64,000 nt of DNA from a virus. Of the stretch, positions 4,885 through 60,564 are shown piece by piece. A program made the translations under genes and the position numbers. Each line of letters opens with the position of its first letter. Position 1 is the stretch's first letter. The stretch spans positions 1-64,000 of the IMG/VR virus record IMGVR_UViG_3300031566_000025, one strand, 5' to 3'. The notes beneath the pieces were generated by a model. The model did not search any database and had not been told where the DNA came from. It saw only the letters and a program-made list of their open reading frames with translations.

Positions 4885-5802
4885 ATGAAAAAGAAGAAAC
4901 TAAGGGCACATCTATTGGTAATTGATCCACAAAACGATTTTTGTTGGCCAGGCATCGATCTAACAAAAATTTCAAAACAAGAACGTGAAACTTTACAAAA
5001 ATATGTTCCCGCAGAAGTTCTTGCAAAAGGAGCTCTATTTGTTGATGGAGCTGACAAGGACATGGAAAGATTAGCTGGATTTGTCAATCAATTCAAGGAC
5101 CAACTTGATGATATCCATGCAACAGTGGATTCTCATCATTATGTGGATATTGCCCATCCCATTTTCTGGGTAAACTCAAATGGTCAGCATCCTAATTCAT
5201 TTACTATTATTTCAGCTGAAGATGTTAGAAATGGAGTTTGGTTGACAACCAATCCGCAACACCAGAAGAGATGTTTAAATTATGTAAATCAACTGGAATC
5301 AAATGGTCGATATCCCCTTTGTATATGGCCACCACATTGTCGAATTGCAACATGGGGTTATTCTGTACATCCAACTCTTGCAGAAGAATTTCTCAATTGG
5401 GAAAAAGATTTTGCAATGGTCAACTATGTAACCAAAGGTTCAAATTTCTGGACAGAACATTATTCAGCAGTTCAGGCAGATGTTCCAGATCCAGAAGATA
5501 TGGGAACTCAATTGAATCTAAATGAAGGAGGTTTAATTTATACTCTTGCTGATAAGGCAGATATAATTCTCCTTGCCGGTGAAGCTAGATCACATTGTCT
5601 AGCAAATACAGTTCGAGATATTGCTGCAAACTTTGATAAAGGCAGTGTTGAAAAACTGTATCTCTTAGAAGACTGCACCTCAGATGTTATGGGATTCGAA
5701 TCCATGGGAGAGTCGTTTGTCAAGGATATGACAGCAATGGGAATGAAACTAACCAGCACCAAGAAATTCACAGAAGATCAATTCTATGAGAAAGGAGTCT
5801 AA
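4885..5802 (+). CDS. Isochorismatase-fold hydrolase, nicotinamidase-like
   Basis: 305 residues. LVIDPQNDFC carries the catalytic Asp, VTKGSNFWTEHYSA the catalytic Lys, and AGEARSHCLANTVRDI the nucleophilic Cys of the family. DSHHYVDIAHPIFW resembles the metal-binding Asp/His set of nicotinamidases. It is longer than PncA (about 210 aa). If active on nicotinamide it would make nicotinic acid for NAD salvage; another amide substrate is possible. It sits between two vWA genes, 28 bases after the first and 3 before the second. Confidence 0.75.
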   Translation: MKKKKLRAHLLVIDPQNDFCWPGIDLTKISKQERETLQKYVPAEVLAKGALFVDGADKDMERLAGFVNQFKDQLDDIHATVDSHHYVDIAHPIFWVNSNGQHPNSFTIISAEDVRNGVWLTTNPQHQKRCLNYVNQLESNGRYPLCIWPPHCRIATWGYSVHPTLAEEFLNWEKDFAMVNYVTKGSNFWTEHYSAVQADVPDPEDMGTQLNLNEGGLIYTLADKADIILLAGEARSHCLANTVRDIAANFDKGSVEKLYLLEDCTSDVMGFESMGESFVKDMTAMGMKLTSTKKFTEDQFYEKGV

Positions 5803-5805
5803 TCT

Positions 5806-6564
5806 ATGCCAAGACTGATGGCAACACAAGATGATCAAATTATTAGTATTCCGGGACCAGGCAATTTTCAATTCTCTGCAATAAAGATTGAAAATCTAGG
5901 TGCATCGGAATACACATTAGTTACAATTGTTTGTGACATTTCAGGAAGTGTTAATGCATTTGCAGTCCCTCTCCTAAACTGTATCAAATCAATTGTAGAA
6001 GCTTGTCAGAAAAGTCCTCGATCAGAAAATCTCCTAGTTCGTCTAGTCGTATTTAATTATACAGTTATTGAGATTCATGGTTTCAAAGATCTAAAAACAA
6101 TTGATGTTAATGATTATAAACCTCTAGTTCCAGATGGTATGACAGTTCTATATGATGGAACATATGATGCCGTTGGTGCAACTATTGAATTTTCAAGTGT
6201 TCTCAAGAAAAATGATTATGACGATGTAAATGGCGCAGTTTATATTATCACCGATGGAATGGATAACAGATCAAAAATTCGTCCTAAAGAAATTGCTGAT
6301 AAAATAGCAATTGCCAAAAAAGGTGAGCAAATTATATCATTGATAACTATTCTTGTTGCTCTCAATGATCCAAGTTCTCCAGATCCAGAAGTCACTAAAT
6401 ACTTATCAAAGTTTCAAGCAGAAGCTAATATAGATCAATTCATTGATATTGGCGATGCAACTCCACAGAAACTGGCAAAACTAGCAAACTTTGTATCACA
6501 GAGTATTAGTAGTCAATCTCAAGCACTGCAGTCAGGTGTCCCAAGTCAACAATTAGCATTCTAA
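5806..6564 (+). CDS. von Willebrand factor A domain protein (vWA 2, YegL/TerY-like)
   Basis: Single-domain vWA protein with MIDAS residues DISGS (Asp44), the threonine in DGMTVLYDG and ITDGMDN. Size and layout resemble the TerY/YegL class that occurs with a PP2C phosphatase and a kinase. SD AAAGGAG lies within the end of the preceding gene. No signal peptide, so cytoplasmic. Probably a scaffold or phosphorylation target of the kinase/phosphatase pair encoded 1.3-2.1 kb downstream (inference). Confidence 0.8.
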   Translation: MPRLMATQDDQIISIPGPGNFQFSAIKIENLGASEYTLVTIVCDISGSVNAFAVPLLNCIKSIVEACQKSPRSENLLVRLVVFNYTVIEIHGFKDLKTIDVNDYKPLVPDGMTVLYDGTYDAVGATIEFSSVLKKNDYDDVNGAVYIITDGMDNRSKIRPKEIADKIAIAKKGEQIISLITILVALNDPSSPDPEVTKYLSKFQAEANIDQFIDIGDATPQKLAKLANFVSQSISSQSQALQSGVPSQQLAF

Positions 6565-6575
6565 AGGAGATAAAC

Positions 6576-6617
6576 ATGACCAACAAATTAAAGGTGCTTC
6601 GTTATGACAGAAGCTAA
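6576..6617 (+). CDS. Possible 13-codon leader ORF
   Basis: AAAGGAG followed by an ATG opens a 13-residue frame (MTNKLKVLRYDRS) whose end overlaps the start of the 372-aa gene at 6604. The best SD in this gap belongs to this mini-frame, not to 6604. It could couple translation of the larger gene, or be the true 5' end of that gene after an indel. Confidence 0.3.
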   Translation: MTNKLKVLRYDRS

Positions 6618-7722
6618 GTATGTTTCAAAAACTCTGAAACAACTATTAGATTATCCTGTTGTAAAAGATATTCTGAACTATAATTCAAATATTTCCAACA
6701 GCGTTACAGAAGTTAGTGATTACTGGGGTTATGATCTTATGAACAGGAAACCCAGTGCACCATATACACAATATGGTATTTTTAAGGCAACAGATCTTGA
6801 TCTAGCTTGTTTCCTATATACACTAGCTGGACGTGGTTCTGTTATTAATATACCAGTATATAAAGCTTTAAGACAGTCTAAAATGAAAGAAGGAGAAGTA
6901 GTCACATCGAAATATAATCGTAATGGGAAATTAGTCAATGTGGCAGGTAATAAAGACTTCTTCATATTCTCCATATCAGTCATTGATCAAAATGTTGTTA
7001 GTGCAGACAAAGTTGGTGAGTTTCGAAACTTTGCACTGACAGATTTTCATGGAGATTTCTATAAAGGATGGAAAGAAATACAGTTCGTCCCAACTCTTAA
7101 TGAAAATAAATTCATTACAGAGAATTCATTATGGACGGGCAATAAAATATATTTCAAAAATTTTATCCATCCGAATCGTTGGACCAGCTTCTTTGGTTAT
7201 CATTATGTGATTACCAAGCTACTTATAAGCAGATTAGAAGCAGAGTCCTCACATTATTACACTCAAATGAAAAAAATATTAGAATCCGGAGTGACATACC
7301 CTCAAGACAGAGGTCCTAAGTCCTATATTACTGAGGCAGTCGGGGAAAAGAAATCTATGAAATTTCCTTCTTTTCAGGTAGATGTTTATATTCCTGATGT
7401 AGAGTTTGTTGGATCTTTCCCGGTGATGAAAAATACACAGGAAGATCTCCTAGATGCATACGACCATCGTAAGAAATTATTATATGGAACAATTCCTAGA
7501 TTACGATTTATGACCAGAGCAACCGAGTATGCACATTATATCGCACAAAATCGGTTTCCAGCTTGGATTAAAAATGCGGAGTGGGAAAGTGGATTTGTTA
7601 TCCCTGGAAAAAGAACAAAATGGGATCGATTAAAACTCTTTCAGACAAAACCTGGAGAAATGGCAGTCTCACTACTCAAAAGAACATATGATAAGTCGAC
7701 CCAAGTCGATATAAATTATTAA
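6604..7722 (+). CDS. Unknown 372-aa protein inside the vWA/PP2C/kinase cluster
   Basis: No family recognised. Soluble, mixed alpha/beta composition with many aromatics (WTSFFGYHYVITKLL, FPAWIKNAEWESGF) and no cysteine motif, signal or membrane segment. It lies between vWA 2 and the PP2C gene in the same orientation, so it is the best candidate for a dedicated effector or substrate of the module. AAAGGTG upstream of ATG 6604 is a moderate SD. Confidence 0.7.
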   Translation: MTEAKYVSKTLKQLLDYPVVKDILNYNSNISNSVTEVSDYWGYDLMNRKPSAPYTQYGIFKATDLDLACFLYTLAGRGSVINIPVYKALRQSKMKEGEVVTSKYNRNGKLVNVAGNKDFFIFSISVIDQNVVSADKVGEFRNFALTDFHGDFYKGWKEIQFVPTLNENKFITENSLWTGNKIYFKNFIHPNRWTSFFGYHYVITKLLISRLEAESSHYYTQMKKILESGVTYPQDRGPKSYITEAVGEKKSMKFPSFQVDVYIPDVEFVGSFPVMKNTQEDLLDAYDHRKKLLYGTIPRLRFMTRATEYAHYIAQNRFPAWIKNAEWESGFVIPGKRTKWDRLKLFQTKPGEMAVSLLKRTYDKSTQVDINY

Positions 7723-7728
7723 CAATTT

Positions 7729-7846
7729 GGGAAGAGCAAGAAAGAAAATCAAAAATAATAAATCTTTTCTCTTGACTCTTCCCTTGGGGAGGGAATAACG
7801 AGCGGTTACTTCTTTGCCGGGGTTGCCGTTCAACGTTCCCTCCCCA
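7729..7846 (+). promoter_or_regulatory. Two consecutive stem-loops upstream of the PP2C gene
   Basis: Hairpin A: GGGAAGAG (7729) pairs with CTCTTCCC (7776), extended by CAAGA/TCTTG. Hairpin B: TGGGGAGGGAA (7785) pairs exactly with TTCCCTCCCCA (7836) around a ~40-base loop that contains CGG/CCG pairing. Neither is followed by a U-run. The PP2C start is 21 bases after hairpin B. They may control expression of the phosphatase/kinase pair or be a processed small RNA. Confidence 0.5.
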
Positions 7847-7867
7847 TAACAATTACTGGAGAAAATA

Positions 7868-8677
7868 ATGCAAATAGATACTTTCATGACAATTGGAAAA
7901 AATCATAAAGTTTGTGAAGATTATATATTATCAGGAATGAATCCAATACCTTATATTATAATCTCTGATGGGTGCTCATCTTCAAAAGGAACTGATATGG
8001 GTGCAAGATTATTATGCTTTCTATCACAACAATATATTAGATTCAGAGCATCTTCAACTAATCACTTTGAACCAGATCATGATGAAATGGGTTTGTGGAT
8101 CATTCATAATGCAGAGTTGGTTGGCAAGCAACTTGGTCTTCCAAAAAATGCTTTAGATGCAACTTTAATTATTGGTTATCAATATACAGAAGATATTATC
8201 AAAGTTCATTTCTATGGAGATGGTTGTGTCATTCACTTTAGACCAAACTATGGATCAATTGAAATAATTGAATACTCAAAGAATGCCCCATACTATCTTT
8301 CGTATAAGATTGATGATGAAAGGCATAACTTATATCATAGCATGAACCAACAAAGAATAATCAAAACTTATCTAATAGAACCAGAGTATGTAGAAATTTG
8401 CAATCCTTATGATAATAATAAAAGTGTTTTTAATTTTGGTCTTAGTGAAATAGATAGTGGTTTATTAATTGCATCTGACGGATTAGCATCTTTTATTAAA
8501 GATGAAGAAGGAGTTATTCCATTTCCTTCCTTTGTTAAAAATTTCTTTGCTTTCAAAACAACAAAAGGTGAATTTCTTAAACGACGTGCCAATAAAGAAC
8601 TTATAACATTAGCAAAGGATGGAATTTATAATTATGATGATCTTTCAATTGGCGCATTCCTTCTGGGGAGCGAATAA
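7868..8677 (+). CDS. PP2C-family protein phosphatase
   Basis: 269 residues with PP2C hallmarks: CEDYIL near residue 16, IISDGCSSSKGTDMGA (metal-binding DG), FYGDGCVIHF, IASDGLASF and the C-terminal YDDLSIGAF (ddDs block). It would remove phosphate from Ser/Thr in a Mg/Mn-dependent way. Its stop overlaps the start codon of the kinase gene (TAATG), so the opposing enzymes are translationally coupled. Best match in concept: the PP2C of TerY-P/YegK systems. Confidence 0.85.
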   Translation: MQIDTFMTIGKNHKVCEDYILSGMNPIPYIIISDGCSSSKGTDMGARLLCFLSQQYIRFRASSTNHFEPDHDEMGLWIIHNAELVGKQLGLPKNALDATLIIGYQYTEDIIKVHFYGDGCVIHFRPNYGSIEIIEYSKNAPYYLSYKIDDERHNLYHSMNQQRIIKTYLIEPEYVEICNPYDNNKSVFNFGLSEIDSGLLIASDGLASFIKDEEGVIPFPSFVKNFFAFKTTKGEFLKRRANKELITLAKDGIYNYDDLSIGAFLLGSE

Positions 8678-10368
8678 TGAAAATAATAGTAAATGGTAAG
8701 GTTATCAACTTAAGTCAGAAAGATTTTGTTGCTAAAGGTGGAGAAGCTATGGTCTTCAACATAGGGGATGTTGCATATAAAGTATATGAAGATTTAAAGA
8801 AGATGGTTCCAGAAGCAAAATTAAAGGAATTATCAACACTGTCAAGTCCAAATATAGTTTCTCCAAAAGATTTAATTTATAACACAAAAAAACAGGTTGC
8901 TGGTTTTACAATGGCATGGTTAGGAACAGATATGCCTGCTTTATGTAAACTCTTCACCACAGGGTTTAGAAAGGCAAATCAAATTACAAATGATCAAACA
9001 TTAGAATTAGTTGAAAATATTAAAGAGAAAACCATATACATTCATGAGAATAACTTCCTAATTGTCGATGGAAATGAGCTTAATTACATGGTCGATAAGG
9101 ACTTTGTAACACCATATTTCATTGATGTAAATGCCTGGAAGACTCCAAGTTTTCCTCCAACAGCAATCATGCCTTCTATTCGTGATTATAGATCAAAGAT
9201 TTTCTCATCCTTAACTGATTGGTTTTCATTTGCAATCATAAGTTTTCAGTTGTTTATTGGAATGCATCCTTTTAAAGGAAAACATCCCAATTATCCAGAT
9301 AGAGATTTTGAATCTAGGGTAAAAAATTGTATATCAGTTTTAAATCCTCAGACTAAAACTACACCTAATATTAGAGATTTTGGTTTAATTCCAACATCCT
9401 ATATGGATTGGTATTTAAAACTATTTGAAAAAGGAGAAAGATTACCACCACCATTAAAAGCAGGTCAAATCGGGCAAGTTAAAACTAGAATTATTTTAGT
9501 TAGCAACACAGATAATTTTCACATTAAAGAACTATTAACGTTTAAGTCAGATATTATATTTCACAATGTTGTGAATAATAAACAAATAACTAAAACCCAA
9601 AATCATCTACACATTGACAAAGAAAAATATAAAGTTTCACCTGATGTTGAGGTTATATTAACACCCATGGAAGGAATTCCAATCTTTATAAAAATTGAAG
9701 GTGAATATGCAAAATTTCATTGTCCAGATATTAATTATAATCTTAAATCTATTGACATAAAATGTAATGAAAAAATGATAATCAACAATATATTATTTCT
9801 AAGAAATAGTGGAAAGCTTATTGAAATAGCTTTTTATGTATCAGGAAAAAATATATTAATTGGATCAAAAACCGTCTGGTCAATTGAACCCATTTCAAGT
9901 CAAATACTTAGTGGTGTTATACATCAAAGTATTTTGGGCAAATCATTTATTACTATTCCTTTACCAACATATCATAAGAGCTCATCAATTGTTAAAAAAA
10001 TTCCAGAGTTTGATGATTATAAAGTCATTGATGGAAAACATCAAAATAGAATTTGTATGTTTACCTTATATAAAAATGATGAATATAGCAGAGCAACACT
10101 CACATTTGATGACTCTTATAATAGGTATAAAATAGATATTAAAGAAGGAATAGACTATACACCAATCAACTTTATTGTTTTAGACAATGGAATTTGTATA
10201 TCAATCACAGATGATGATGCAGTTGAAATATTTTTGAATAAAATTGACAAACCTGATGTAAAAAGAATAGAAGATCCAGAAATCAACTCTGTGATGAAAC
10301 TATGTAATGATGGCGTTCAAGTAAGAGTATTTAAAGGAGAGAAACTTTTTGCAATTAAAATGAGGTAA
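8677..10368 (+). CDS. Protein kinase-like protein (YegI/TerY-P class) with C-terminal extension
   Basis: Residues ~15-265 form a kinase-like domain: glycine-rich AKGGEAMVF (19-27), Lys35 in VAYKVYE, catalytic-loop Asp131 and Asn136 in VDGNELNYMV, and metal-binding Asp150 in FIDVNAW. The HRD His is absent and the loop is short, as in the divergent kinases paired with PP2C and vWA proteins. Residues ~270-563 are beta-rich, possibly a sensor or propeller-like region, with no family recognised. No membrane segment. It would phosphorylate Ser/Thr on a partner, perhaps the vWA proteins. Confidence 0.8.
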   Translation: MKIIVNGKVINLSQKDFVAKGGEAMVFNIGDVAYKVYEDLKKMVPEAKLKELSTLSSPNIVSPKDLIYNTKKQVAGFTMAWLGTDMPALCKLFTTGFRKANQITNDQTLELVENIKEKTIYIHENNFLIVDGNELNYMVDKDFVTPYFIDVNAWKTPSFPPTAIMPSIRDYRSKIFSSLTDWFSFAIISFQLFIGMHPFKGKHPNYPDRDFESRVKNCISVLNPQTKTTPNIRDFGLIPTSYMDWYLKLFEKGERLPPPLKAGQIGQVKTRIILVSNTDNFHIKELLTFKSDIIFHNVVNNKQITKTQNHLHIDKEKYKVSPDVEVILTPMEGIPIFIKIEGEYAKFHCPDINYNLKSIDIKCNEKMIINNILFLRNSGKLIEIAFYVSGKNILIGSKTVWSIEPISSQILSGVIHQSILGKSFITIPLPTYHKSSSIVKKIPEFDDYKVIDGKHQNRICMFTLYKNDEYSRATLTFDDSYNRYKIDIKEGIDYTPINFIVLDNGICISITDDDAVEIFLNKIDKPDVKRIEDPEINSVMKLCNDGVQVRVFKGEKLFAIKMR

Positions 10369-10370
10369 TT

Positions 10371-10604
10371 ATGTTTAATCACACACTTATACTTTTTGTG
10401 GTTGTTGTTTTAATAATATCAATTTTAGGTTGGCAAAATTCATCCAATAGGATACTAAAAATCGTATTATCGAAATATGAATGGACTCTATATGCCAAAA
10501 GTTTAAAAAGACTAATCCCTGGATATTCAGTTTATTATTTATACAAATGGAAAAGACAAGTCAAAAGAGAAACCAAAAAACAAAAATTGAAAGGGATGTT
10601 ATGA
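10371..10604 (+). CDS. Small membrane-anchored basic protein
   Basis: 77 residues: an N-terminal transmembrane helix (about residues 4-24) and a strongly basic remainder (KWKRQVKRETKKQKLK). It starts 2 bases after the kinase gene and its TGA overlaps the next ATG. Position suggests co-expression with the kinase. Function unknown. Confidence 0.55.
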   Translation: MFNHTLILFVVVVLIISILGWQNSSNRILKIVLSKYEWTLYAKSLKRLIPGYSVYYLYKWKRQVKRETKKQKLKGML

Positions 10605-10912
10605 AAATTGTTGATAAAGAGGACATACCAGAGGACGCAGTTGAAATGCATTTATACGATTGGCAAAATGTAATGATGCCAAGAGGATCTAGACAAAAAG
10701 AATCAATATATGAAATTATCTTCCCAAGATTGGTTGAATCATTCCTATCTTTCACTGATCCAAAATATGGTGACAATCCACATATTGAAGATTTATTAAA
10801 AACTATGTCTAAAAATCTTTTAGGTGAAATGCTCAACGCTTGGGAAGATTTTTTAAATAATCCAACGGTAGAAGAACGAATGTATGAAATTAAAAAAAGA
10901 AAGGAGATTTAA
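10601..10912 (+). CDS. Hypothetical acidic protein (103 aa)
   Basis: ATG 10601 is chosen over the longer frame from 10481 because it has SD AAAGGGA and forms an ATGA overlap with the previous gene. Soluble and acidic (DKEDIPEDAVE near the start). No family recognised. Confidence 0.55.
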   Translation: MKIVDKEDIPEDAVEMHLYDWQNVMMPRGSRQKESIYEIIFPRLVESFLSFTDPKYGDNPHIEDLLKTMSKNLLGEMLNAWEDFLNNPTVEERMYEIKKRKEI

Positions 10913-10914
10913 AA

Positions 10915-11247
10915 ATGGTAACCTTTATAGAAAATGGAGTTATAGATCCACATAAGGTCAAAATCGTTCCAATCCCTAAAGGAGTTATGGAAGCTGATGA
11001 ATTAAAAGTAATTCAAATTATGAAAGTTGAAAAATTAAAGATCATGCATAAATTATGGGACCAGATCGGTATGGAGCTTCTATTTTGGCCAATTATATTA
11101 GATCAAGATTATGAAGTTATAAGTGGAATATGCGAAGTAGCATTTGCTCGCCAAAAAAATGTAGAGCAAATATCATTTAAAAGATATAACTTAACCAAAG
11201 AGGATAAAATCAGATTTTTGCCTCATGTACACATATTCAAAAAATAA
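10915..11247 (+). CDS. ParB-like fold protein, short and apparently degenerate
   Basis: 110 residues aligning with the N-terminal part of the next gene: GVIDPHKVK versus GYIEPNKVK, and FWPIILDQDYEVISG versus FPIVLDQDDRVPDG. The GxHR signature of ParB/sulfiredoxin-like domains is lost here (ISGICEVAFA). It looks like a duplicated copy that lost the nucleotide-binding or catalytic site and may act as a partner or inhibitor of the intact protein. Confidence 0.6.
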   Translation: MVTFIENGVIDPHKVKIVPIPKGVMEADELKVIQIMKVEKLKIMHKLWDQIGMELLFWPIILDQDYEVISGICEVAFARQKNVEQISFKRYNLTKEDKIRFLPHVHIFKK

Positions 11248-11281
11248 AAGAATAGATTAAAAAAAGAAAGGAGAAAAGAAA

Positions 11282-12268
11282 ATGACTAAAACAAAAGTGG
11301 TTACAAGAAAGAAAAAAATGGCAAAAATAACAACAGGCACCACAAAATTACCATTTCCAACTAATCTACCTTCTAAACATATAAATATGAGCCTTATGGA
11401 AAAAGGTTATATTGAACCAAATAAAGTCAAAATGGATCTTCCTTTTCAAAGAGATGAGGAACCTAATAGAATGAAATATCTTCTTGAGTCATTCGAAGCT
11501 TTAGGTATGTATGATGAAGCTTTTCCAATTGTATTAGATCAAGATGATAGGGTTCCAGATGGAACACATCGAATCATTATGGCGAAGCTTAAAAATTTAC
11601 CATTAATACCATATATTAGATATCACTTTGCAACCCAATTGGATAGATTAAAATATTTTCATATAGCACAGAGACACCCACAAGGTATGAAAGCAAGGGA
11701 TGAATTATATGCTTATAAGCTTGGTCAGCACGCATATGCGGAACTATTATATTCTTTATGTGGACAAAACGCTCCTACCTTATGTTCCACTTGCAGCGAT
11801 TTAAAGATGAATCAAGACTCAAAGATGTCAAATTCAAATATCAAAGTTGTACATCTTTGTTATATGGTTAATTACATAGTTCTTGGTTCAAAAACAAGTT
11901 GGGCGAGAACCCTGGCTGATACTCTGTATAAAAAATCCCTTCCGCATTTAAATGAGAAATCATATAAAATGAATTGTCAAAAAATCGACGATTTTTTACG
12001 ATTTTTTCTAAACTCAACCGGATGGGATATATCAAAAAAGGATCTAAGGTTTAAAGAGCATTTTATTTTAGCTTTTATTGAACTTTACACAGAACATCTG
12101 ATGCCTGATTCAAAATTCAAACTAAAAGGAGAAAAGAAAAGAATTGAAGGTATACTGAAAAGATATCGAATTATTTCTGAAGTGGTTACCAATCATAGGT
12201 TTGTCATTGTACAAAAATTATTAAAGGAGATAAATGGCACGAAAGGGCCAGAAAAATGTTATATCTAA
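11282..12268 (+). CDS. ParB/Srx-like N-terminal domain protein
   Basis: Residues ~30-120 carry a ParB-like block: FPIVLDQDDRVPDGTHRIIMAK, with the GTHR motif matching the GxHR of ParB CTPase/nuclease-type domains. The C-terminal ~200 residues contain a cysteine group (LCGQNAPTLCSTC) and end in a helical basic region. SD AAAGGAG lies upstream. A chromosome-partitioning ParB is unlikely without ParA; phage members are often DNA-binding or modification cofactors. Confidence 0.65.
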   Translation: MTKTKVVTRKKKMAKITTGTTKLPFPTNLPSKHINMSLMEKGYIEPNKVKMDLPFQRDEEPNRMKYLLESFEALGMYDEAFPIVLDQDDRVPDGTHRIIMAKLKNLPLIPYIRYHFATQLDRLKYFHIAQRHPQGMKARDELYAYKLGQHAYAELLYSLCGQNAPTLCSTCSDLKMNQDSKMSNSNIKVVHLCYMVNYIVLGSKTSWARTLADTLYKKSLPHLNEKSYKMNCQKIDDFLRFFLNSTGWDISKKDLRFKEHFILAFIELYTEHLMPDSKFKLKGEKKRIEGILKRYRIISEVVTNHRFVIVQKLLKEINGTKGPEKCYI

Positions 12269-13857: not shown

Positions 13858-15312
13858 TTATGCACCAATAGATAGAGTTGCAATACCATTACTTCTAACA
13901 AGTGCAGTCGCATAACGACTCAAGATTGTTAGAGAAGGTGTGTAACCCAAAGGATACGGATGCAAAACTGCTGGGACATAAGGAGCGTAGAAATAAATAG
14001 CTTTCAGTTCTTCTACTGGTTTGTAGACCATAACCATTGTACCTTGTGTGACAACGGCAGATGTTAGAACTTTCCACTTTCCACCAGCAACTGTAGCTGA
14101 TCTATATCCCACATCTCCATCCACACTTGATGTTCCAGTGTAGTTGAATGTCTGTAGGTCTTCAAGGATAGCAACATCTAGGGGGTTAGCAAGAATGGTA
14201 TTTCCTGCATCAATGTTGGTATCTGTATAGATCTGACCAGATAGTTGATTCAGTACTGGGATGATATTTTCATGCCAATACTTTGTTCCCCATGTATAAG
14301 CGGTTGGTGGGGTACGAGTAAATGATCCTGCGTGCGAAGCAGCATTCAGACGTGTATTTGCTGTAATCAATGCATTGATGATTTCTCTATCAATGTCTAG
14401 AGCAACTTGTTGACCCAGAATGTTTACGATTTCAGCTTGCATAGAAACATCAAACAGAGCTCGCATATCTTGCTCCATATTGACAGTCCAGTTTGCGCTG
14501 ATCTGTCTGTCTCTTGCATACAGTCTTACCTTATCTACGTTTAGAGTAACTGATGGGTTCACTCTATTTTCTTCCAGTGAAATTGTCACTGTGTAACGTA
14601 CATATGTAACAGTACCGGTAGCACTAGAAATATCCACTGTACCATTCAAGTAATCAACTTTACCGGAAACAACATCTGCTGATCCTACTGTAACACTTTG
14701 TGAGAAATGTCCTTCAACAGCTGGTAGAATAGACACTGATGTCCATGCTGTACCGTCTGCTGAAACTGCTGTGATCTCAAAATCTCTTTCAAGATGAGCT
14801 TGTGTACTTGTCAATGTTGGACTAGCTGTTGCGAGAACATCATAAGAAGAACTCGGAACCGGAATTGAAGCAGCAACAGGTGTTCCAAATGCAACACCCT
14901 GAGAAATATCATTTGATGTTACAGGAGCATCATATGTGCTTGAACTGTTTGATGGAGTAAACTTTGCTTTGATGAAAGCTTTGATTGTTTCTGGTTTATC
15001 CATTGGTGATACAGTTACAGCTTCTTTTGCAACTAGTTTGGGGTAGAAAACACGAAGAATAGGTAATGTTAATGTTTCATAAGGATTGATCTGAAACATT
15101 GAATTTTCTAACAGATTAATTCTTGTATTTTCTGCAAGTACTAAAAATTGTTCACGATCTCTTTTGTTCTCAATTGATTCTGCCAATCCTGTAGCATATG
15201 CTTCAAATGCTGCATCGTCGACTAATACAGCTCGAAGATTGCCAGGTTTACTTGGGTCTACGCCACTAATTTTTTTGGTTGTAGCATAAACCTCTTGAAG
15301 TAATTCTTTCAT
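13858..15312 (-). CDS. Major capsid protein (T4 gp23-like)
   Basis: 484 residues, the last gene of the head operon and the only one just before a strong terminator, typical for the most abundant product. An N-terminal helical region (ending near MFQINPYETLTLPILRVFYP) would be removed by the prohead protease; a Ser/Thr-rich inserted domain (~residues 115-250) precedes the HK97-type core (ARDRQISANWTVNMEQDMRA, ALDIDREIINALI). The C-terminus has the PSLTILSRYATALVR block typical of gp23-like proteins. SD AGGAGGAAGG lies upstream. Confidence 0.85.
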   Translation of the reverse strand: MKELLQEVYATTKKISGVDPSKPGNLRAVLVDDAAFEAYATGLAESIENKRDREQFLVLAENTRINLLENSMFQINPYETLTLPILRVFYPKLVAKEAVTVSPMDKPETIKAFIKAKFTPSNSSSTYDAPVTSNDISQGVAFGTPVAASIPVPSSSYDVLATASPTLTSTQAHLERDFEITAVSADGTAWTSVSILPAVEGHFSQSVTVGSADVVSGKVDYLNGTVDISSATGTVTYVRYTVTISLEENRVNPSVTLNVDKVRLYARDRQISANWTVNMEQDMRALFDVSMQAEIVNILGQQVALDIDREIINALITANTRLNAASHAGSFTRTPPTAYTWGTKYWHENIIPVLNQLSGQIYTDTNIDAGNTILANPLDVAILEDLQTFNYTGTSSVDGDVGYRSATVAGGKWKVLTSAVVTQGTMVMVYKPVEELKAIYFYAPYVPAVLHPYPLGYTPSLTILSRYATALVRSNGIATLSIGA

Positions 15313-30744: not shown

Positions 30745-33700
30745 TTAAAATAAAATAACCTCATTTTTCTTTTCTTCTATTGCTTTGAATAATGGTTTTA
30801 AGAATAATGCATGTCTATCTTCAAATGTAAATTTTAATGTTGACTGAACATCTGGAATAAAATAATGTGGTAATTTTTCTTCTTCATCTGGAATTGCTAT
30901 TACTTCCAATTTTTTACCTCCAGATATAAATTTATGATACTTTTCTAAAACATCTTTTGGCGCTTTATCAATATCTATTCCTTTCACCCAGTATAAATAA
31001 CCCTTTGCACCTGTGCGATGAATATCATACATTATACTATTCCATGCCTGCATACTTCTTACTCCCTGTGGAACCATTTTATAATCCTCTAATTTTTTAC
31101 CCCATGATACAGGTCTACCAATTTTCTTATCCCCATTTCTTATCATTTCTACAAAATCTCTTTTGCTTCTATTAATAAAATCCATAATTTTAGGAGGTGA
31201 CATCTTTTCAGATTTTGACTTTAATAAAAGTTCAGATAACTCTATTAAAAATTCTTTTGATTTACTTGGATAATCAGATCTTTTAATTTCAACTCCCATA
31301 AAATTAGTTTTATCAACTTCCTTCCCTTCATTATTTACAACATGAATTGCATATCGTTTTTTAGCAAGAAATAATCCTCTTGAAATAATTAACTCATTTT
31401 TTAATTTCAATCTGTTATACTCTAAATTAACATTATATCTCTTTACAACTTCAGCAATTTTATCATTATTTAAAAAATCTTCTATTTTATCACACCATTT
31501 ACGAATATTATCAATCGTTTTCTCTTCCACAAAATTTTCAAACTTACAAAAAATTGAATCTGTATCTCCAGTTATAATGAAATCGTTTGATCTGTCAGGT
31601 AATGTATATAACTCTGGTTCTGCCTTTGGATCTGCAAACATTTCTTCTTTTGTTAAAGTCTTTGGTTTTATATACTCTATTCCTGTTGCCATACTTCTCA
31701 TTAAAGCATCGCCTTCAATAATTGAAGTTTTCAATGCTTCTTGACCAGTCAATGTGATTGCTGATGCTAGTGATAGATCATAAAATCTAAATGACTTGTT
31801 TGCAACAACCCCATATAAAGTATTTGCTAAAACCTTATAAACAAGTTGTCTTGTATAAAAGAATTTTTCTGCATTCTTATCTTTCTTTTCAATAGCATCA
31901 AACATCTGACTTTTATATGTATCACGAGATGACATTAACATCTCGACTACTTCTCCAAACACAGAAAACTTTTTCTTATGCGAGTTAAAAAAGCATCCAT
32001 TAACTGTATAAACTAACTCTTTTTCTTTTATCAATTTCAATAACCCATTTTTATCAATTTCTACAAGTTCTTTCTTATATAGAGGATCAACAACTACACT
32101 TATTTTATCTGGCAACTTTTCTGGATTATATGCAATATCATATCCAAGATGCGGATTGGTTGTTTTCATTACAAAACTATTAATACCAATATTATAAGTA
32201 ATCATTAAACTTGGATACAGAGACTTAAAATCAAAATCTGTTATCCAACTATAAAGTCCAGGTATTGGTTCATAGACATAAGCTCCAGGATAACTTTCTT
32301 TTGAAATGTGTGGATCAGAATTTTTAGAAGCTATTCCCTTACTTCTTAAATATGAAACCATCAATGAATCAATCTGCCCCATAGATGTGACAGAATCAAA
32401 ACTTGTATTACAAATAATTCTCAATTCATTTAACAAATTAATATGACCTAATTTATCATCTAATTCTTTTAACAATTCTGTATCTCGAATATTATACTTA
32501 ATCGTCATATTTAACTTCTGCCAATACATCTCATTGAAGGACAACGGCAATTGAATTTTTGTACGCCCCAGCTCACTCTCTGCAATAAATCCAAGTTTAT
32601 AATTTTCCATTTTTGTAAATGTAAATGTTCTATATAAAAAATCTTGATCAATAGCAACACATCCAGGAATTAAACAAATCCATCTTGCACCATCAACAAA
32701 AAATTCCCCAAATTTTGTCATTAAAGTATCAGGTATTTTTAAATTTCTAATTCTATTAAAAATGTATTGCATATCAAAACTAATTAAATTCCATCCAGAA
32801 ATAAAATCAGGATCAGTATCTCTAAAATCTTTCATAAATGTACGCAACATCTTATTTTCATCTTTTATATCAAAAATCTTATAAACAACACCATCAACTT
32901 TTTCTATTGGTTCAGTTTTATTATCAAGAACATAAGTGGTTGTAACACCATTATAAATTGATGTAAACATATTTATTGAAAACTCTGCTTCTATTGGACT
33001 TGGAAAGATCTTTTCTTTTCCAGTATCAATTTCAATATCAAAAAACATAACATTAGATTCTACCTTTGGAGCATCCCCTTTGTTAAAATGATAATAATCC
33101 ATAGCATGTTTAGTTGTTATTCTAATATCCCCTTCATACGTTATATCTGGATCTAATTGATTTCTATCTCTATATGATAAAGAAATTTGTTTAAGATCTT
33201 CATAAGGAATAATCTTTCTTGCTTCAACTCCATCTTTTATCTGATAACAAATATATTCATCACTTTCTGTATGATAAATTTTTTTATTATTTCTATCTCT
33301 AAAAATATAAAGAACCTCTTGCTTTTTACTAATAAATTGAACATCAATGAGTCTGTAATCGTCTGTATAAAACTTCTCTGGAATCTTATATCTGTATATG
33401 CCTTCTCCAATTTTCTTCTCATTAACTTTAAATGATACGTCTGAAACAACGCCATTTAACAAATCTGAAATTTTTAACATATCTTCTTCAAATTTTGGTT
33501 CCCATACCTTTAAATTTCTATTAGCAAAAGAAGGATGGATTGTTAAAAAAACTTTAAATCCTTCCCATTCAAACGTTTTACCATGAAGATTAGTTATACC
33601 CGATTTAGCAATGCCAAATGCACTCATAGGAGTTGCACCCATCAAAACAATCAACTTTGGTTTACATTGTCTAATAATTTCCATACAATTCATTTTACAT

Positions 33701-34020
33701 CTTTCAATAACATCTGGTTCTGGATTGCCAGTTGTTTTATCTGGATTTATTGTCTGACATAAAACTGTATTTGTTAGAAGATATTTTACTTTATTTAATT
33801 CATATTTTGCAAAATATTTTCTAAACATTCTGCCTGACTTACCAACCAACGGTGCTGGTTCTGGTTTTTTGGCAACCTCATTCTTACCAGGATTCTCTGC
33901 TACAAATACAATTTCAACCTGTGTAAGATCAACTTTTGAATTTGTTTCTAGAATACAAGAAGGAGCATCTAATAATTGACAAGTTGAGCAATCAGCAAAA
34001 GAATCTTTAATTGAAATCAT
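30745..34020 (-). CDS. Fused uracil-DNA glycosylase / family B DNA polymerase
   Basis: 1091 residues. N-terminal ~190 form a family 4-type UDG: CSTC (11-14), AENPGKNE (41-48), NTVLCQ with Cys88, Cys108/Cys112, and IHPSF (161-165); four cysteines fit a 4Fe-4S cluster. The rest is PolB: exonuclease DIE (328-330), NLISFD (411-416), YNIRD (509-513); polymerase motif A DFKSLYPS (597-604), B K729..N733TLYG, C TGDTDS (818-822). All catalytic carboxylates are intact, so replication with proofreading and an attached uracil sensor or excision domain is expected. Confidence 0.9.
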   Translation of the reverse strand: MISIKDSFADCSTCQLLDAPSCILETNSKVDLTQVEIVFVAENPGKNEVAKKPEPAPLVGKSGRMFRKYFAKYELNKVKYLLTNTVLCQTINPDKTTGNPEPDVIERCKMNCMEIIRQCKPKLIVLMGATPMSAFGIAKSGITNLHGKTFEWEGFKVFLTIHPSFANRNLKVWEPKFEEDMLKISDLLNGVVSDVSFKVNEKKIGEGIYRYKIPEKFYTDDYRLIDVQFISKKQEVLYIFRDRNNKKIYHTESDEYICYQIKDGVEARKIIPYEDLKQISLSYRDRNQLDPDITYEGDIRITTKHAMDYYHFNKGDAPKVESNVMFFDIEIDTGKEKIFPSPIEAEFSINMFTSIYNGVTTTYVLDNKTEPIEKVDGVVYKIFDIKDENKMLRTFMKDFRDTDPDFISGWNLISFDMQYIFNRIRNLKIPDTLMTKFGEFFVDGARWICLIPGCVAIDQDFLYRTFTFTKMENYKLGFIAESELGRTKIQLPLSFNEMYWQKLNMTIKYNIRDTELLKELDDKLGHINLLNELRIICNTSFDSVTSMGQIDSLMVSYLRSKGIASKNSDPHISKESYPGAYVYEPIPGLYSWITDFDFKSLYPSLMITYNIGINSFVMKTTNPHLGYDIAYNPEKLPDKISVVVDPLYKKELVEIDKNGLLKLIKEKELVYTVNGCFFNSHKKKFSVFGEVVEMLMSSRDTYKSQMFDAIEKKDKNAEKFFYTRQLVYKVLANTLYGVVANKSFRFYDLSLASAITLTGQEALKTSIIEGDALMRSMATGIEYIKPKTLTKEEMFADPKAEPELYTLPDRSNDFIITGDTDSIFCKFENFVEEKTIDNIRKWCDKIEDFLNNDKIAEVVKRYNVNLEYNRLKLKNELIISRGLFLAKKRYAIHVVNNEGKEVDKTNFMGVEIKRSDYPSKSKEFLIELSELLLKSKSEKMSPPKIMDFINRSKRDFVEMIRNGDKKIGRPVSWGKKLEDYKMVPQGVRSMQAWNSIMYDIHRTGAKGYLYWVKGIDIDKAPKDVLEKYHKFISGGKKLEVIAIPDEEEKLPHYFIPDVQSTLKFTFEDRHALFLKPLFKAIEEKKNEVILF

Positions 34021-50725: not shown

Positions 50726-50803
50726 GGTCCAGTAGCTCCAGTGGTTAGAGCAGGAAACTCTAAATTTCCGTTTGCGAGGGTTCGAATCCCTCCTGGACCA
50801 CCA
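50726..50803 (+). tRNA. Amber-suppressor-type tRNA (anticodon CUA)
   Basis: Acceptor GGTCCAG/CTGGACC, D-stem GCTC/GAGC, anticodon stem GGAAA/TTTCC with loop CTCTAAA giving CUA, T-arm GAGGG/CCCTC, A73, encoded CCA. All stems are perfect. The loop differs from tRNA-Trp (CTCCAAA) by one base. It would read UAG codons; which amino acid it carries cannot be told from sequence alone. Confidence 0.9.
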
Positions 50804-52059: not shown

Positions 52060-53433
52060 ATGTTCATCCCCAACAACATAAATCTTCTATATATAGAAGA
52101 TGATGAGGAAAATGCAAATCTTATTCTGTCATTTTTAAAATTATCTGAATATACAAAATTTAATACAACTCATAAAAGTACATTAGAACAAGGTTTAGAC
52201 TATATTACAGATAACTGTATTTCTACTTGTAATAACACTTGTAAAACTCAAAATATTGAAAACTGTGGAACAGATGTTATTTTATTAGATCTAGTTTTAC
52301 AAAATAGTCGAGGAGTTGATACATATAAATCAGTTTTAGAAAAATGCCCCTGTATTCCAATTGTTATCATATCTGGATATGAACAAATGGCATATGAATG
52401 TGTTAAACTAGGAGCTCAAGACTATTTAGTAAAACCCCATATTAATCCAGGTTTAATTATCAGATCATTGGTATATGCAATTGAAAGAAATAATCTAGAA
52501 AACTCAAAAATACAAGCTGAAAAGAAATTTAGAGAAGTTATTTATGCAACTCCAATTGGTTTTCATAATTATGAACTAAAAGAAGAAGATCTAATATTTA
52601 TAGGTTATAATCCAGCAGCAGATCGAATACTAAAAATTGATCATAAACAATTATTAGGAAAAACAATTGATCAAGCATTTCCCTCTCTAACTAAAATGAA
52701 AATTCCTGAAAAATATAAAATAGTTGCAAAAACAGGCAAACCATGGGAATCACAAATTTTAGAATACGAAGACCATAATATTAAAAAAGCTTATTTTAAA
52801 ATACATGCATTTAGAACATACCCTGGTTCTATAACCTCTTCATTTGAGGATATTACAGAGCAAATAATAGCAACAGAAAAACTAGAATATAGTGAAAAAA
52901 GATTTAGAAACCTAGTTGAAATAACAGGTGCAGGAATATATGAAATAGATCTCACTAATGGAAAATTTACTTATGTAAATCATGTTATGTGTAAACAAAC
53001 TGGATATACTAAAGAAGAACTTTTTGAAATTGGACCTTCTGGACTTTTAACTCAAAAAAGCTATCTTGACTGGGTTGATAGATGGGAAAGATTTACTGAT
53101 CCAGAATATATTAATGGAGGAGCTTATGATGGTCCATTTCAATATGAAGCTATTGCAAAAGATGGTTCTCATCTTTGGTCATTAGTTATAGCAGAATTTG
53201 TAATGGATAAAAATAAAAATATAACCAAAGCAAATGTTGTTGCTATTGATATAACGAAACAAAAATTAATAGAATCTCAATTAAAGAAAAAAGAAGATAT
53301 TATATTCAATCAATTAGAAGATAAAATACATCAATGGAGGGATGAAATAACCGAAAGATCTTCAGTTGAATTTCAAAAATTAAAAGACATGGACAATAAA
53401 ATAATATCCATTAGTAATCAAATTGTGGAGTAA
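52060..53433 (+). CDS. REC-PAS-PAS response-regulator-like protein
   Basis: 457 residues. Receiver domain (5-145): EDDEE acidic pocket, phosphoacceptor Asp77 in ILLDLV, VIISGYE with the conserved Ser, and Lys in YLVKPH. Four cysteines sit in a loop before Asp77 (C53, C57, C61, C69). Two PAS domains follow (~160-275 and ~285-410, e.g. VMCKQTGYTKEELFEIGPSG) and a C-terminal helix. No kinase, GGDEF or HTH output domain. It would bind or intercept host phospho-signalling. Confidence 0.85.
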   Translation: MFIPNNINLLYIEDDEENANLILSFLKLSEYTKFNTTHKSTLEQGLDYITDNCISTCNNTCKTQNIENCGTDVILLDLVLQNSRGVDTYKSVLEKCPCIPIVIISGYEQMAYECVKLGAQDYLVKPHINPGLIIRSLVYAIERNNLENSKIQAEKKFREVIYATPIGFHNYELKEEDLIFIGYNPAADRILKIDHKQLLGKTIDQAFPSLTKMKIPEKYKIVAKTGKPWESQILEYEDHNIKKAYFKIHAFRTYPGSITSSFEDITEQIIATEKLEYSEKRFRNLVEITGAGIYEIDLTNGKFTYVNHVMCKQTGYTKEELFEIGPSGLLTQKSYLDWVDRWERFTDPEYINGGAYDGPFQYEAIAKDGSHLWSLVIAEFVMDKNKNITKANVVAIDITKQKLIESQLKKKEDIIFNQLEDKIHQWRDEITERSSVEFQKLKDMDNKIISISNQIVE

Positions 53434-58535: not shown

Positions 58536-58612
58536 GCCACGTGTAGCTCACCGGTAGAGCTCTAGCTTGAAGCGCTGGGTAGCAGGGAGTTCAATTCTCC
58601 TCCGTGGCACCA
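58536..58612 (+). tRNA. tRNA-Phe (anticodon GAA)
   Basis: Acceptor GCCACGT/CCGTGGC (7-66 mismatch), stem CTAGC/GCTGG with loop TTGAAGC, T-arm GGGAG/CTCCT, encoded CCA. Confidence 0.88.
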
Positions 58613-58620
58613 AAGCTTAT

Positions 58621-58699
58621 GGTGGTCATACTCGAGTAAGGTCTCAGAGGCAAGGTTGTGGCCCTTGTTACGTGGGTTCAAATCCCACTGATCACCCCA
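58621..58699 (+). tRNA. tRNA-His (anticodon GUG)
   Basis: G-1 at 58621 opposite C73 (the His identity pair), acceptor GTGGTCA/TGATCAC, stem CAAGG/CCTTG with loop TTGTGGC, encoded CCA. Confidence 0.93.
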
Positions 58700-58718: not shown

Positions 58719-58922
58719 ATGACTAAACCATATCATTGTTTATTTTGTGGAAGAGAAAATAAAAAAGTTAAAAAAATGTTCTGTTCAGAAGAAACCAAAT
58801 GTATTTGTAATGAATGTTTAGATCTTTGTAAAGAGATCGATGAAAATGGTGAAAAGAAAATAGTTATTAATCTAAATATACCAACGTTGAAAAGAATTGA
58901 TCATCCAGACATTGTAGCATGA
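58719..58922 (+). CDS. ClpX-type zinc-finger protein 2
   Basis: 67 residues with HCLFCGREN and CICNECLDLC, matching the ClpX N-terminal zinc domain, without an ATPase. Second of two in this window (see 51322). SD GAAAGGA. ATGA overlap with the next gene. Confidence 0.65.
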   Translation: MTKPYHCLFCGRENKKVKKMFCSEETKCICNECLDLCKEIDENGEKKIVINLNIPTLKRIDHPDIVA

Positions 58923-59302
58923 ATGAATCATGCTGGCATTATGTAATCAAATTTATTAATGAACATGAAGATGGCGAAATATTAAATGCAACATCAATGC
59001 TTCATTACGTTAGAAAGCATAAACCAGAATATAAAAGAAAATATTATTACACGGGTATATATGACCATGTTGGAGTAGATGCTTTACCAGATCTAGTATA
59101 CTCATATAGAGTTATATTAGAAAGACTAGGTTTTCTCAAACACATAAAAAAAGGTTCGTGGATAAAAGTTAGAAGTTTTCCAGAACATATTAGTAGCTAT
59201 AAAGCTAAAAAGATTGCATTTTCAAAGTTACCTTGGCAAGCATGGTTCATCCCTCCAGGATGGATAGTAGAAGGAAAAACTCAAAAATCAAAGGGGGGTT
59301 AA
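58919..59302 (+). CDS. Hypothetical protein (127 aa)
   Basis: Basic protein; central SYRVILERLGFLKHIKKGSW looks like a winged-helix recognition part. Begins in ATGA overlap and ends in TAATG overlap with the HD gene, so the three genes are co-translated. No family recognised. Confidence 0.5.
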   Translation: MNESCWHYVIKFINEHEDGEILNATSMLHYVRKHKPEYKRKYYYTGIYDHVGVDALPDLVYSYRVILERLGFLKHIKKGSWIKVRSFPEHISSYKAKKIAFSKLPWQAWFIPPGWIVEGKTQKSKGG

Positions 59303-60054
59303 TGGAAGATGTAGCAGTAAATTTGCCCAATGGTGATATTACAACAGATAAAGATAAATTAAATCAATTATTAGATTCAAGTTATCCTTTACTACAAAAA
59401 TTTAGAGAGTTATGCCCTGGTTCTTATAAACACTCTCAATCAGTATCTTCCATGGTGGAAGGAATATCACTATCACTAGGTTTAAACGTTACTTTTATGA
59501 AAGTAGCATCTCTTTATCATGATATTGGAAAAATGTTTAATCCAAAATATTTCACTGAGAATCAGTTAGAAGATGAGAATATCCATGATAAACTAGATGC
59601 AAAAATTAGTTATCAATATATTTCAAGACATATTTCAGATACTGCATTGATATTATTAAATGATGAAAACTTTCCAAGAGATTTGATTGAAATAATTACA
59701 CAGCATCATGGTACAACTGTTATTAAATACTTCTTTGATAAATCAGGAAGTGATATAGAAGACAACTTTAGATACAAGTCAAAGAGACCAAAAAAAATTG
59801 AATCCATGTTATTAATGATATGCGATTCTATAGAAGCTAAGTCAAGATCTCTTGTTCAAAGTGGTAACTTTGATCCAACTGAAACCATAGAAGAAACTAT
59901 TAATAATCTTCTAAGTGATGGACAATTGGATGATGTTGTAATGAGACTTGGAGATTTACAAAAATTAAAAGACGGACTAGCAAAAGAACTAGAAGGAACC
60001 TACCAAAAAAGGGTTAATTATTCTAAAGCAAAAGATGAAGTAAAATCTGAATAA
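59302..60054 (+). CDS. PgpH-like HD-domain phosphodiesterase (soluble)
   Basis: 250 residues. HD motifs: His44 (YKHSQ), His73-Asp74 (LYHDIGK), NPKYFTENQ, NIHDKLDAKISYQYI, ITQHHGTTVIKYFF, FRYKSKRPKKIESML and CDSIEAKSRSL. This order and wording match the HD domain of PgpH/7TMR-HD enzymes that hydrolyse cyclic di-AMP. The membrane and extracellular parts of PgpH are missing, giving a free cytosolic enzyme. It may lower host c-di-AMP or degrade related defence nucleotides (inference). Confidence 0.8.
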   Translation: MEDVAVNLPNGDITTDKDKLNQLLDSSYPLLQKFRELCPGSYKHSQSVSSMVEGISLSLGLNVTFMKVASLYHDIGKMFNPKYFTENQLEDENIHDKLDAKISYQYISRHISDTALILLNDENFPRDLIEIITQHHGTTVIKYFFDKSGSDIEDNFRYKSKRPKKIESMLLMICDSIEAKSRSLVQSGNFDPTETIEETINNLLSDGQLDDVVMRLGDLQKLKDGLAKELEGTYQKRVNYSKAKDEVKSE

Positions 60055-60397: not shown

Positions 60398-60472
60398 GGC
60401 GGTGTATCCAAGTGGGAAGGAAGCTGACTGCAAATCAGTTATACGGGAGTTCGATTCTCTCCACCGCCTCCA
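60398..60472 (+). tRNA. tRNA-Cys (anticodon GCA)
   Basis: Acceptor GGCGGTG/CACCGCC, stem GCTGA/TCAGT with loop CTGCAAA, encoded CCA. Confidence 0.93.
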
Positions 60473-60485
60473 TTTAATTTTTAAT

Positions 60486-60564
60486 GGGATAGTAACTCAG
60501 CTAGGATTAGAGTAACTGACTTTTAATCAGTAAGTCGTGGGTTCGATTCCCACCTGTCCCACCA
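60486..60564 (+). tRNA. tRNA-Lys (anticodon UUU)
   Basis: Acceptor GGGATAG/CTGTCCC, stem ACTGA/TCAGT with loop CTTTTAA, T-arm GTGGG/CCCAC, encoded CCA. Last tRNA of the array; the convergent gene on the - strand reads through it. Confidence 0.95.

Follow-up and report, generated by a model that had tools for sequence, protein, structure and literature searches.

A soluble PgpH-type HD-domain protein from a jumbo-phage lineage belongs to a virus-only clade of predicted cyclic di-AMP hydrolases

Introduction

Cyclic di-AMP (c-di-AMP) is essential in many bacteria. PgpH of Listeria hydrolyses c-di-AMP to pApA and does not hydrolyse c-di-GMP, and the metal ligands of its HD domain are H514, H543, D544, H580, an HH pair and D648 (PMC8177086). 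A further active-site residue of PgpH, Lys547, stabilises the oxyanion (PMC12072042).

Phages are known to encode nucleases, such as Acb1 and Apyc1, that destroy the cyclic-nucleotide signals of CBASS-like defences (PMC9117128), and HD-GYP and HD-alarmone phosphodiesterases of jumbo phages have been predicted to be counter-nucleotide defences (Iyer et al., 2021; PMC7824862). On the bacterial side, 2',3'-c-di-AMP serves the Panoptes system as a tripwire that guards against the depletion of cyclic nucleotides by phages (PMC12657230).

Here we describe an HD-domain protein encoded in a 64,000-nucleotide stretch of viral DNA (hereafter the window; positions 1 to 64,000 of the 64,297-base IMG/VR record IMGVR_UViG_3300031566_000025). 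The original prediction, made from the window's sequence alone, held that this protein is a free PgpH-like phosphodiesterase in a coupled three-gene unit. A search of the open literature, a scope that leaves subscription journals and preprints largely outside, returned no description of PgpH-type enzymes from phages.

Results

The window encodes a PgpH-type HD domain without a membrane sensor

The positions of the HD gene and of the features discussed with it are listed in Table 1. The mechanically called open reading frame of the HD gene starts at a TTG (59233); the likely start is the ATG at 59302, which is preceded by a strong Shine-Dalgarno sequence, aaagggggg, and overlaps the stop codon of the gene for the 127-aa protein as TAATG.

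Table 1. Features of the window discussed in the text
Feature	Position	Strand	Basis or remark
67-aa protein with ClpX-type C4 zinc finger, no ATPase	58719..58922	+	PF06689, E 2e-8
127-aa protein, no family	58919..59302	+	overlaps zinc protein and HD genes
Shine-Dalgarno sequence of HD gene	59290..59298	+	within 3' end of the 127-aa gene
Free PgpH-type HD phosphodiesterase (putative), 250 aa	59302..60054	+	PDB match, fold, ligands
tRNA-Phe and tRNA-His genes, upstream of HD gene	58536..58699	+	ARAGORN
tRNA-Cys and tRNA-Lys genes, downstream of HD gene	60398..60564	+	ARAGORN
gp23-type major capsid protein	13858..15312	-	PF07068, E 1.1e-33
Family B DNA polymerase with fused N-terminal uracil-DNA-glycosylase domain	30745..34020	-	Pfam

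The HD protein matched the HDIG family of NCBIfam (TIGR00277, E 1.1e-13) and the Pfam HD domain (E 1.1e-12); it belongs to no PHROGs family, and its relatives gave only weak PHROGs matches. Comparison with the PDB returned a single strong match, the HD domain of Listeria PgpH (Lmo1466, 4s1b; E 2.9e-39, 138 bits), the runner-up scoring E 0.28 and 14 bits. Identity to PgpH, the single structurally characterised enzyme of this type, is only 34-37%. No transmembrane segment was found in the protein or upstream of it, in agreement with the original prediction that the domain stands without its membrane sensor, and the same was true of every viral relative checked. Since the entire extracellular 7TMR-HDED and 7TM membrane part of PgpH is missing, the protein corresponds to the HD domain of PgpH and not to full-length PgpH. 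Taken together, sequence and structure model strongly support its assignment as a soluble homologue of the PgpH-type HD domain.

The predicted fold and the active site are those of PgpH

An AlphaFold2 model of the HD protein, built from 34 aligned sequences, had a pLDDT of 91.8 and a pTM of 0.86. Foldseek aligned this model with the PgpH HD domain at E 8.3e-15 (TM-score of 0.91 on the target), compared with about 2e-3 for HD-GYP domains and 5.9e-3 for a Thermus dNTPase. VIA-align gave the same ranking: the PgpH HD domain was superposed over 207 residues at 1.6 A with a Z score of 29.9, and the next families followed at 12.9 (best HD-GYP), 11.5 (YhaM), 9.1 (YfbR) and 9.0 (DatZ). The comparison of a structure model with PgpH that had been proposed as a check thus places PgpH nearest.

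The metal ligands of the window protein are H44, H73, D74, H110, H135, H136 and D175, and the catalytic lysine of its HDIGK motif is K77. None of these eight residues varies among the viral homologues (25 of 25). The PgpH-type series H...HD...H...HH...D plus lysine is thus complete, in line with the motif-by-motif match of the original prediction. An HD-GYP identity was ruled out: no GYP triad follows the HH pair (the window sequence reads HHGTTVIKYFF), the HD_5 model scored below its cut-off, and the fold Z score for HD-GYP is the 12.9 given above, against 29.9 for PgpH.

The viral proteins nevertheless differ from cellular PgpH at conserved positions. Position 138, directly after HHG, is T in 50 of 53 cellular PgpH sequences and D, T or N in the viral clade; in addition, G114 is replaced by S or T and G160 by C, T or S, and one residue is inserted at 119. 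These changes indicate that the specificity of the viral clade may have shifted. Residues that are near-fixed in the viral proteins, by comparison with PgpH, are F34, L59, L61, Y104, R109, K159, L203, G217, L226 and E229.

Free HD homologues form a virus-only clade

IMG/VR was scanned twice, giving 28 loci, about 24 of which are distinct; three more came from a search within the phage lineage to which the window belongs. Beyond the window, at least 26 distinct viral contigs encode a free HD homologue. At every one of the 28 scanned loci, including one truncated at the 5' end where its contig stops, the HD domain stands alone, has a length of about 230-280 aa and is not preceded by a transmembrane segment. 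By comparison, a simple hydropathy count found at least five upstream transmembrane segments in 77 of the 80 closest cellular matches (GTDB, one genome per species); the remaining three are truncated by a contig end. Homology to PgpH starts at the cytosolic linker (TTDxxxL), directly past the last helix, and the viral protein retains this post-membrane motif at its N-terminus; judged from the sequences, the domain looks as if it had been excised from PgpH exactly at the membrane exit.

Phylogenetic analysis showed that the tested viral sequences form one clade on a long stem, with no cellular member (SH-aLRT 100; 100/99 in the more careful tree). With the tree left unrooted, capture of a bacterial gene followed by loss of the sensor would be the parsimonious origin of this clade.

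Searches of other collections gave no verified viral counterpart. Among INPHARED and GenBank phages there was no verified good match, and the full-length matches were all unverified clones. These clones were rejected as phage homologues, given that four of the five inspected carry the 7TM region and resemble ordinary bacterial pgpH; the fifth is cut at a contig edge. Plasmid matches reached only 30-39% identity, several of them annotated as PgpH or HDIG proteins, and BFVD contained no viral structure model at E <= 1e-3.

The HD gene is an accessory gene that moves between phages

The major capsid protein of the window is 64-87% identical to those on contigs of up to 312 kb, indicating that the record is a fragment from a jumbo-phage lineage. 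Its DNA polymerase, which was used as the lineage marker against which the HD gene was compared, is 46-65% identical within the same lineage. The HD gene is present in 6 of 24 records of this lineage, including five of the eight that exceed 200 kb, and is therefore an accessory gene.

Relationships among the HD proteins did not follow those of the phages. In one record of the lineage (G015), in which the HD gene adjoins the polymerase gene, the capsid protein and the polymerase are 82% and 63% identical to those of the window and the HD protein only 44%; conversely, two contigs with no detectable relative of the polymerase (G001 and G005) encode HD proteins 62-69% identical to the window protein. 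When the HD genes of the lineage were forced into a single clade, the tree was rejected (AU p 1.7e-5). This conflict between the HD and the phage phylogenies shows that the gene moves between phages, and the sequence comparisons imply either two or more entries into the lineage or exchange.

Several other genes of these phages were recorded. The window also encodes a TAXI/NMT1-type solute-binding protein (1214-2071; PF16868, E 8e-16), a protein that combines receiver and PAS domains (52060-53433), and a PP2C-type phosphatase whose gene overlaps that of a 563-aa protein weakly matching protein kinases (7868-10368), possibly a phage kinase/phosphatase pair. Two HD-carrying phages have a tRNA with a CUA anticodon, called Pyl by ARAGORN (window 50726-50803; L003 2246-2321). 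Amber recoding in the window was rejected, TAG still being an ordinary stop in 9 of 62 open reading frames. On three related phage contigs, genes for cytochrome c7 or class III-like multihaem proteins lie at a distance of a few kb from that for the HD protein (L005 1004-1297, L022 670-957, L030 146-445), which suggests anaerobic metal- or sulfate-reducing hosts.

The neighbourhood of the HD gene is conserved only in part

The open reading frames upstream of the HD gene are as the original prediction had described them, a ClpX-type zinc protein and a 127-aa protein. The zinc-finger match of the former is above the gathering score; the protein consists of the zinc finger only, without the AAA+ ATPase, and does not qualify as ClpX. 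The 127-aa protein has no Pfam or NCBIfam family and no relative in the phage collection; weak homologues (29-34% identity) occur within the same jumbo-phage lineage, not adjacent to the HD gene. Its gene overlaps that of the zinc protein by ATGA at 58919-58922. Together with the TAATG overlap, this bears out the proposed translational coupling of the three genes within the window; in relatives the unit is not conserved. The closest relative (G025, whose capsid protein is 87% identical) has all three genes within about 3 kb, that for the 127-aa protein in two paralogous copies, with tRNAs and other genes between them. This is the only relative in which the zf-C4_ClpX protein was found again; in the next relative (G044) the zinc finger was not found, and at other viral loci the neighbours of the HD gene are entirely different. 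A conserved functional module of three genes was therefore rejected, the zinc protein recurring in one relative and the 127-aa homologues being weak and non-adjacent.

What is constant in the window, G025 and G044 is the location of the HD gene within a tRNA array, with Phe and His upstream and Cys and Lys downstream. The array of G044 also contains genes for an RNA ligase, RlaP, a CCA-adding enzyme and PTH2, and two further loci (G043 and L010) have an RNA ligase one or two genes from the HD gene. Elsewhere, NAD-dependent DNA ligases and ClpA-like ATPases are found as neighbours. In some phages, mainly of one subclade, a MESH1/SpoT-like alarmone hydrolase is encoded two or three genes away, which is consistent with a role in clearing host signal nucleotides. 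No diadenylate cyclase partner was found in 25 phage records, and a scan of six loci detected only tRNAs, with no c-di-AMP (ydaO) or other riboswitches. PADLOC returned only weak Cas3/Cas10 HD matches.

Gene arrangements around the HD gene were also recorded at three loci. In L156, from a jumbo phage, PTH2, the HD phosphodiesterase, RNA ligase, RlaP and CCA-adding enzyme form an RNA-repair island interleaved with tRNAs (5772-10561, minus strand). In L157, the HD gene directly adjoins that of an RNA ligase split by an intein, which includes a LAGLIDADG endonuclease (6670-8931, minus strand). The HD gene of L003 has an NAD biosynthesis set (NAPRTase, a cytidylyltransferase-like NadD and NAD synthase) at a distance of about 2-5 kb (8761-11492, minus strand).

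Discussion

The window protein resembles Listeria PgpH and its relatives in HD sequence and fold, and shares with them the seven metal ligands and the active-site lysine. By analogy with PgpH, and from the sequence and the model, it is likely to be an unregulated c-di-AMP hydrolase yielding pApA. If the mechanism is transferred from the Listeria enzyme, two metal ions bound by the seven ligands would activate a water molecule, the activated water would open the c-di-AMP ring to give 5'-pApA, and K77 would stabilise the leaving oxyanion. With the 7TMR-HDED/7TM sensor missing, the phage enzyme should be constitutively active and cytosolic; it would then deplete the infected cell of 3',3'-c-di-AMP and override host control of this nucleotide. 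We infer the substrate, the constitutive activity and the depletion of c-di-AMP in vivo, and the combined claim, that the protein drains c-di-AMP during infection, appears probable, slightly less so than the activity itself.

Two other activities were considered. The position of the HD gene among the tRNAs of the window and of its two closest relatives, one of which also has RNA-repair genes there, and the RNA ligase genes nearby in two further loci raise the alternative that the domain trims RNA ends, such as 2',3'-cyclic phosphates, within a phage island for tRNA maintenance. This location could point away from a role in c-di-AMP hydrolysis. However, most viral homologues have no RNA-repair neighbours, PgpH is far ahead of other HD families in both fold and sequence, and the active site of PgpH is preserved in full, which makes a role in RNA-end processing improbable. 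A dNTP or nucleotide-pool hydrolase of the dNTPase, YfbR or DatZ type would share the superfamily fold, and such HD enzymes do occur in phages (e.g., DatZ). YfbR, DatZ and the HD dNTPase of E. faecalis reached VIA-align Z scores of only 8-9 against 29.9 for PgpH, the Thermus dNTPase trailed PgpH by Foldseek (5.9e-3 against 8e-15), and the NCBIfam dGTPase model gave E 0.017, far below its cut-off, so that this activity is very improbable indeed. What had been named as speaking against the original prediction was inactivity on all cyclic nucleotides together with a closer match to HD proteins of the dNTPase type; given the margin of PgpH in both structural comparisons, sequence and fold point the other way.

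A different question is whether the same chemistry is aimed at an immune signal and not at housekeeping c-di-AMP, the enzyme destroying the cyclic di- or oligonucleotide alarms of CBASS-like systems, or the c-di-AMP of a defence cyclase, so that the effector stays silent. An accessory, patchy and horizontally exchanged gene in large phages is what would be expected of an arms-race gene, and the relaxed positions of the viral clade would permit a wider range of substrates. Precedents are available as well. Like the HD-GYP and HD-alarmone proteins of jumbo phages, the window protein is a phage-borne member of the HD superfamily with a predicted action on signal nucleotides; unlike them, it lacks GYP, is of the PgpH subtype and is not among the phosphodiesterases described in that work (PMC7824862). 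Acb1 and Apyc1 are likewise phage enzymes that destroy cyclic nucleotides, as is predicted for the HD protein, but their folds and mechanisms are unrelated to it (a metal-independent nuclease and a metallo-beta-lactamase fold, respectively). Few characterised CBASS systems, however, use c-di-AMP as their main signal. A scan made without a dedicated anti-defence library recognised no known anti-defence gene among the neighbours of the HD gene, and PgpH reportedly leaves other cyclic dinucleotides, c-di-GMP among them, intact (PMC8177086). Moreover, the Panoptes decoy is 2',3'-c-di-AMP, so that promiscuous depletion could backfire if the enzyme accepts this isomer (PMC12657230). The Panoptes tripwire implies, independently of this enzyme, that depletion of cyclic nucleotides is a pressure against which bacteria guard. 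Both roles named in the original prediction, collapse of host c-di-AMP signalling and destruction of CBASS-type signals, are plausible. Overall, counter-defence seems the less likely explanation, and we lean towards reprogramming of the host rather than escape from defence as the benefit of c-di-AMP hydrolysis to the phage.

More broadly, and only tentatively, the viral proteins may represent an old, mobile family of sensor-less PgpH enzymes, a class undescribed in the literature searched, that wipes out c-di-AMP in hosts using this nucleotide and thereby collapses host physiology or blinds a defence signalled by c-di-AMP. If this is true, the targeting of c-di-AMP by phages would become directly testable through a virus-only clade of stripped-down PgpH enzymes, as would the part that defences such as Panoptes may play in guarding against this targeting. 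The family would be an addition to the phage counter-nucleotide repertoire of HD-GYP, HD-alarmone, DHH and Acb1 proteins, and would supply soluble c-di-AMP hydrolases as tools.
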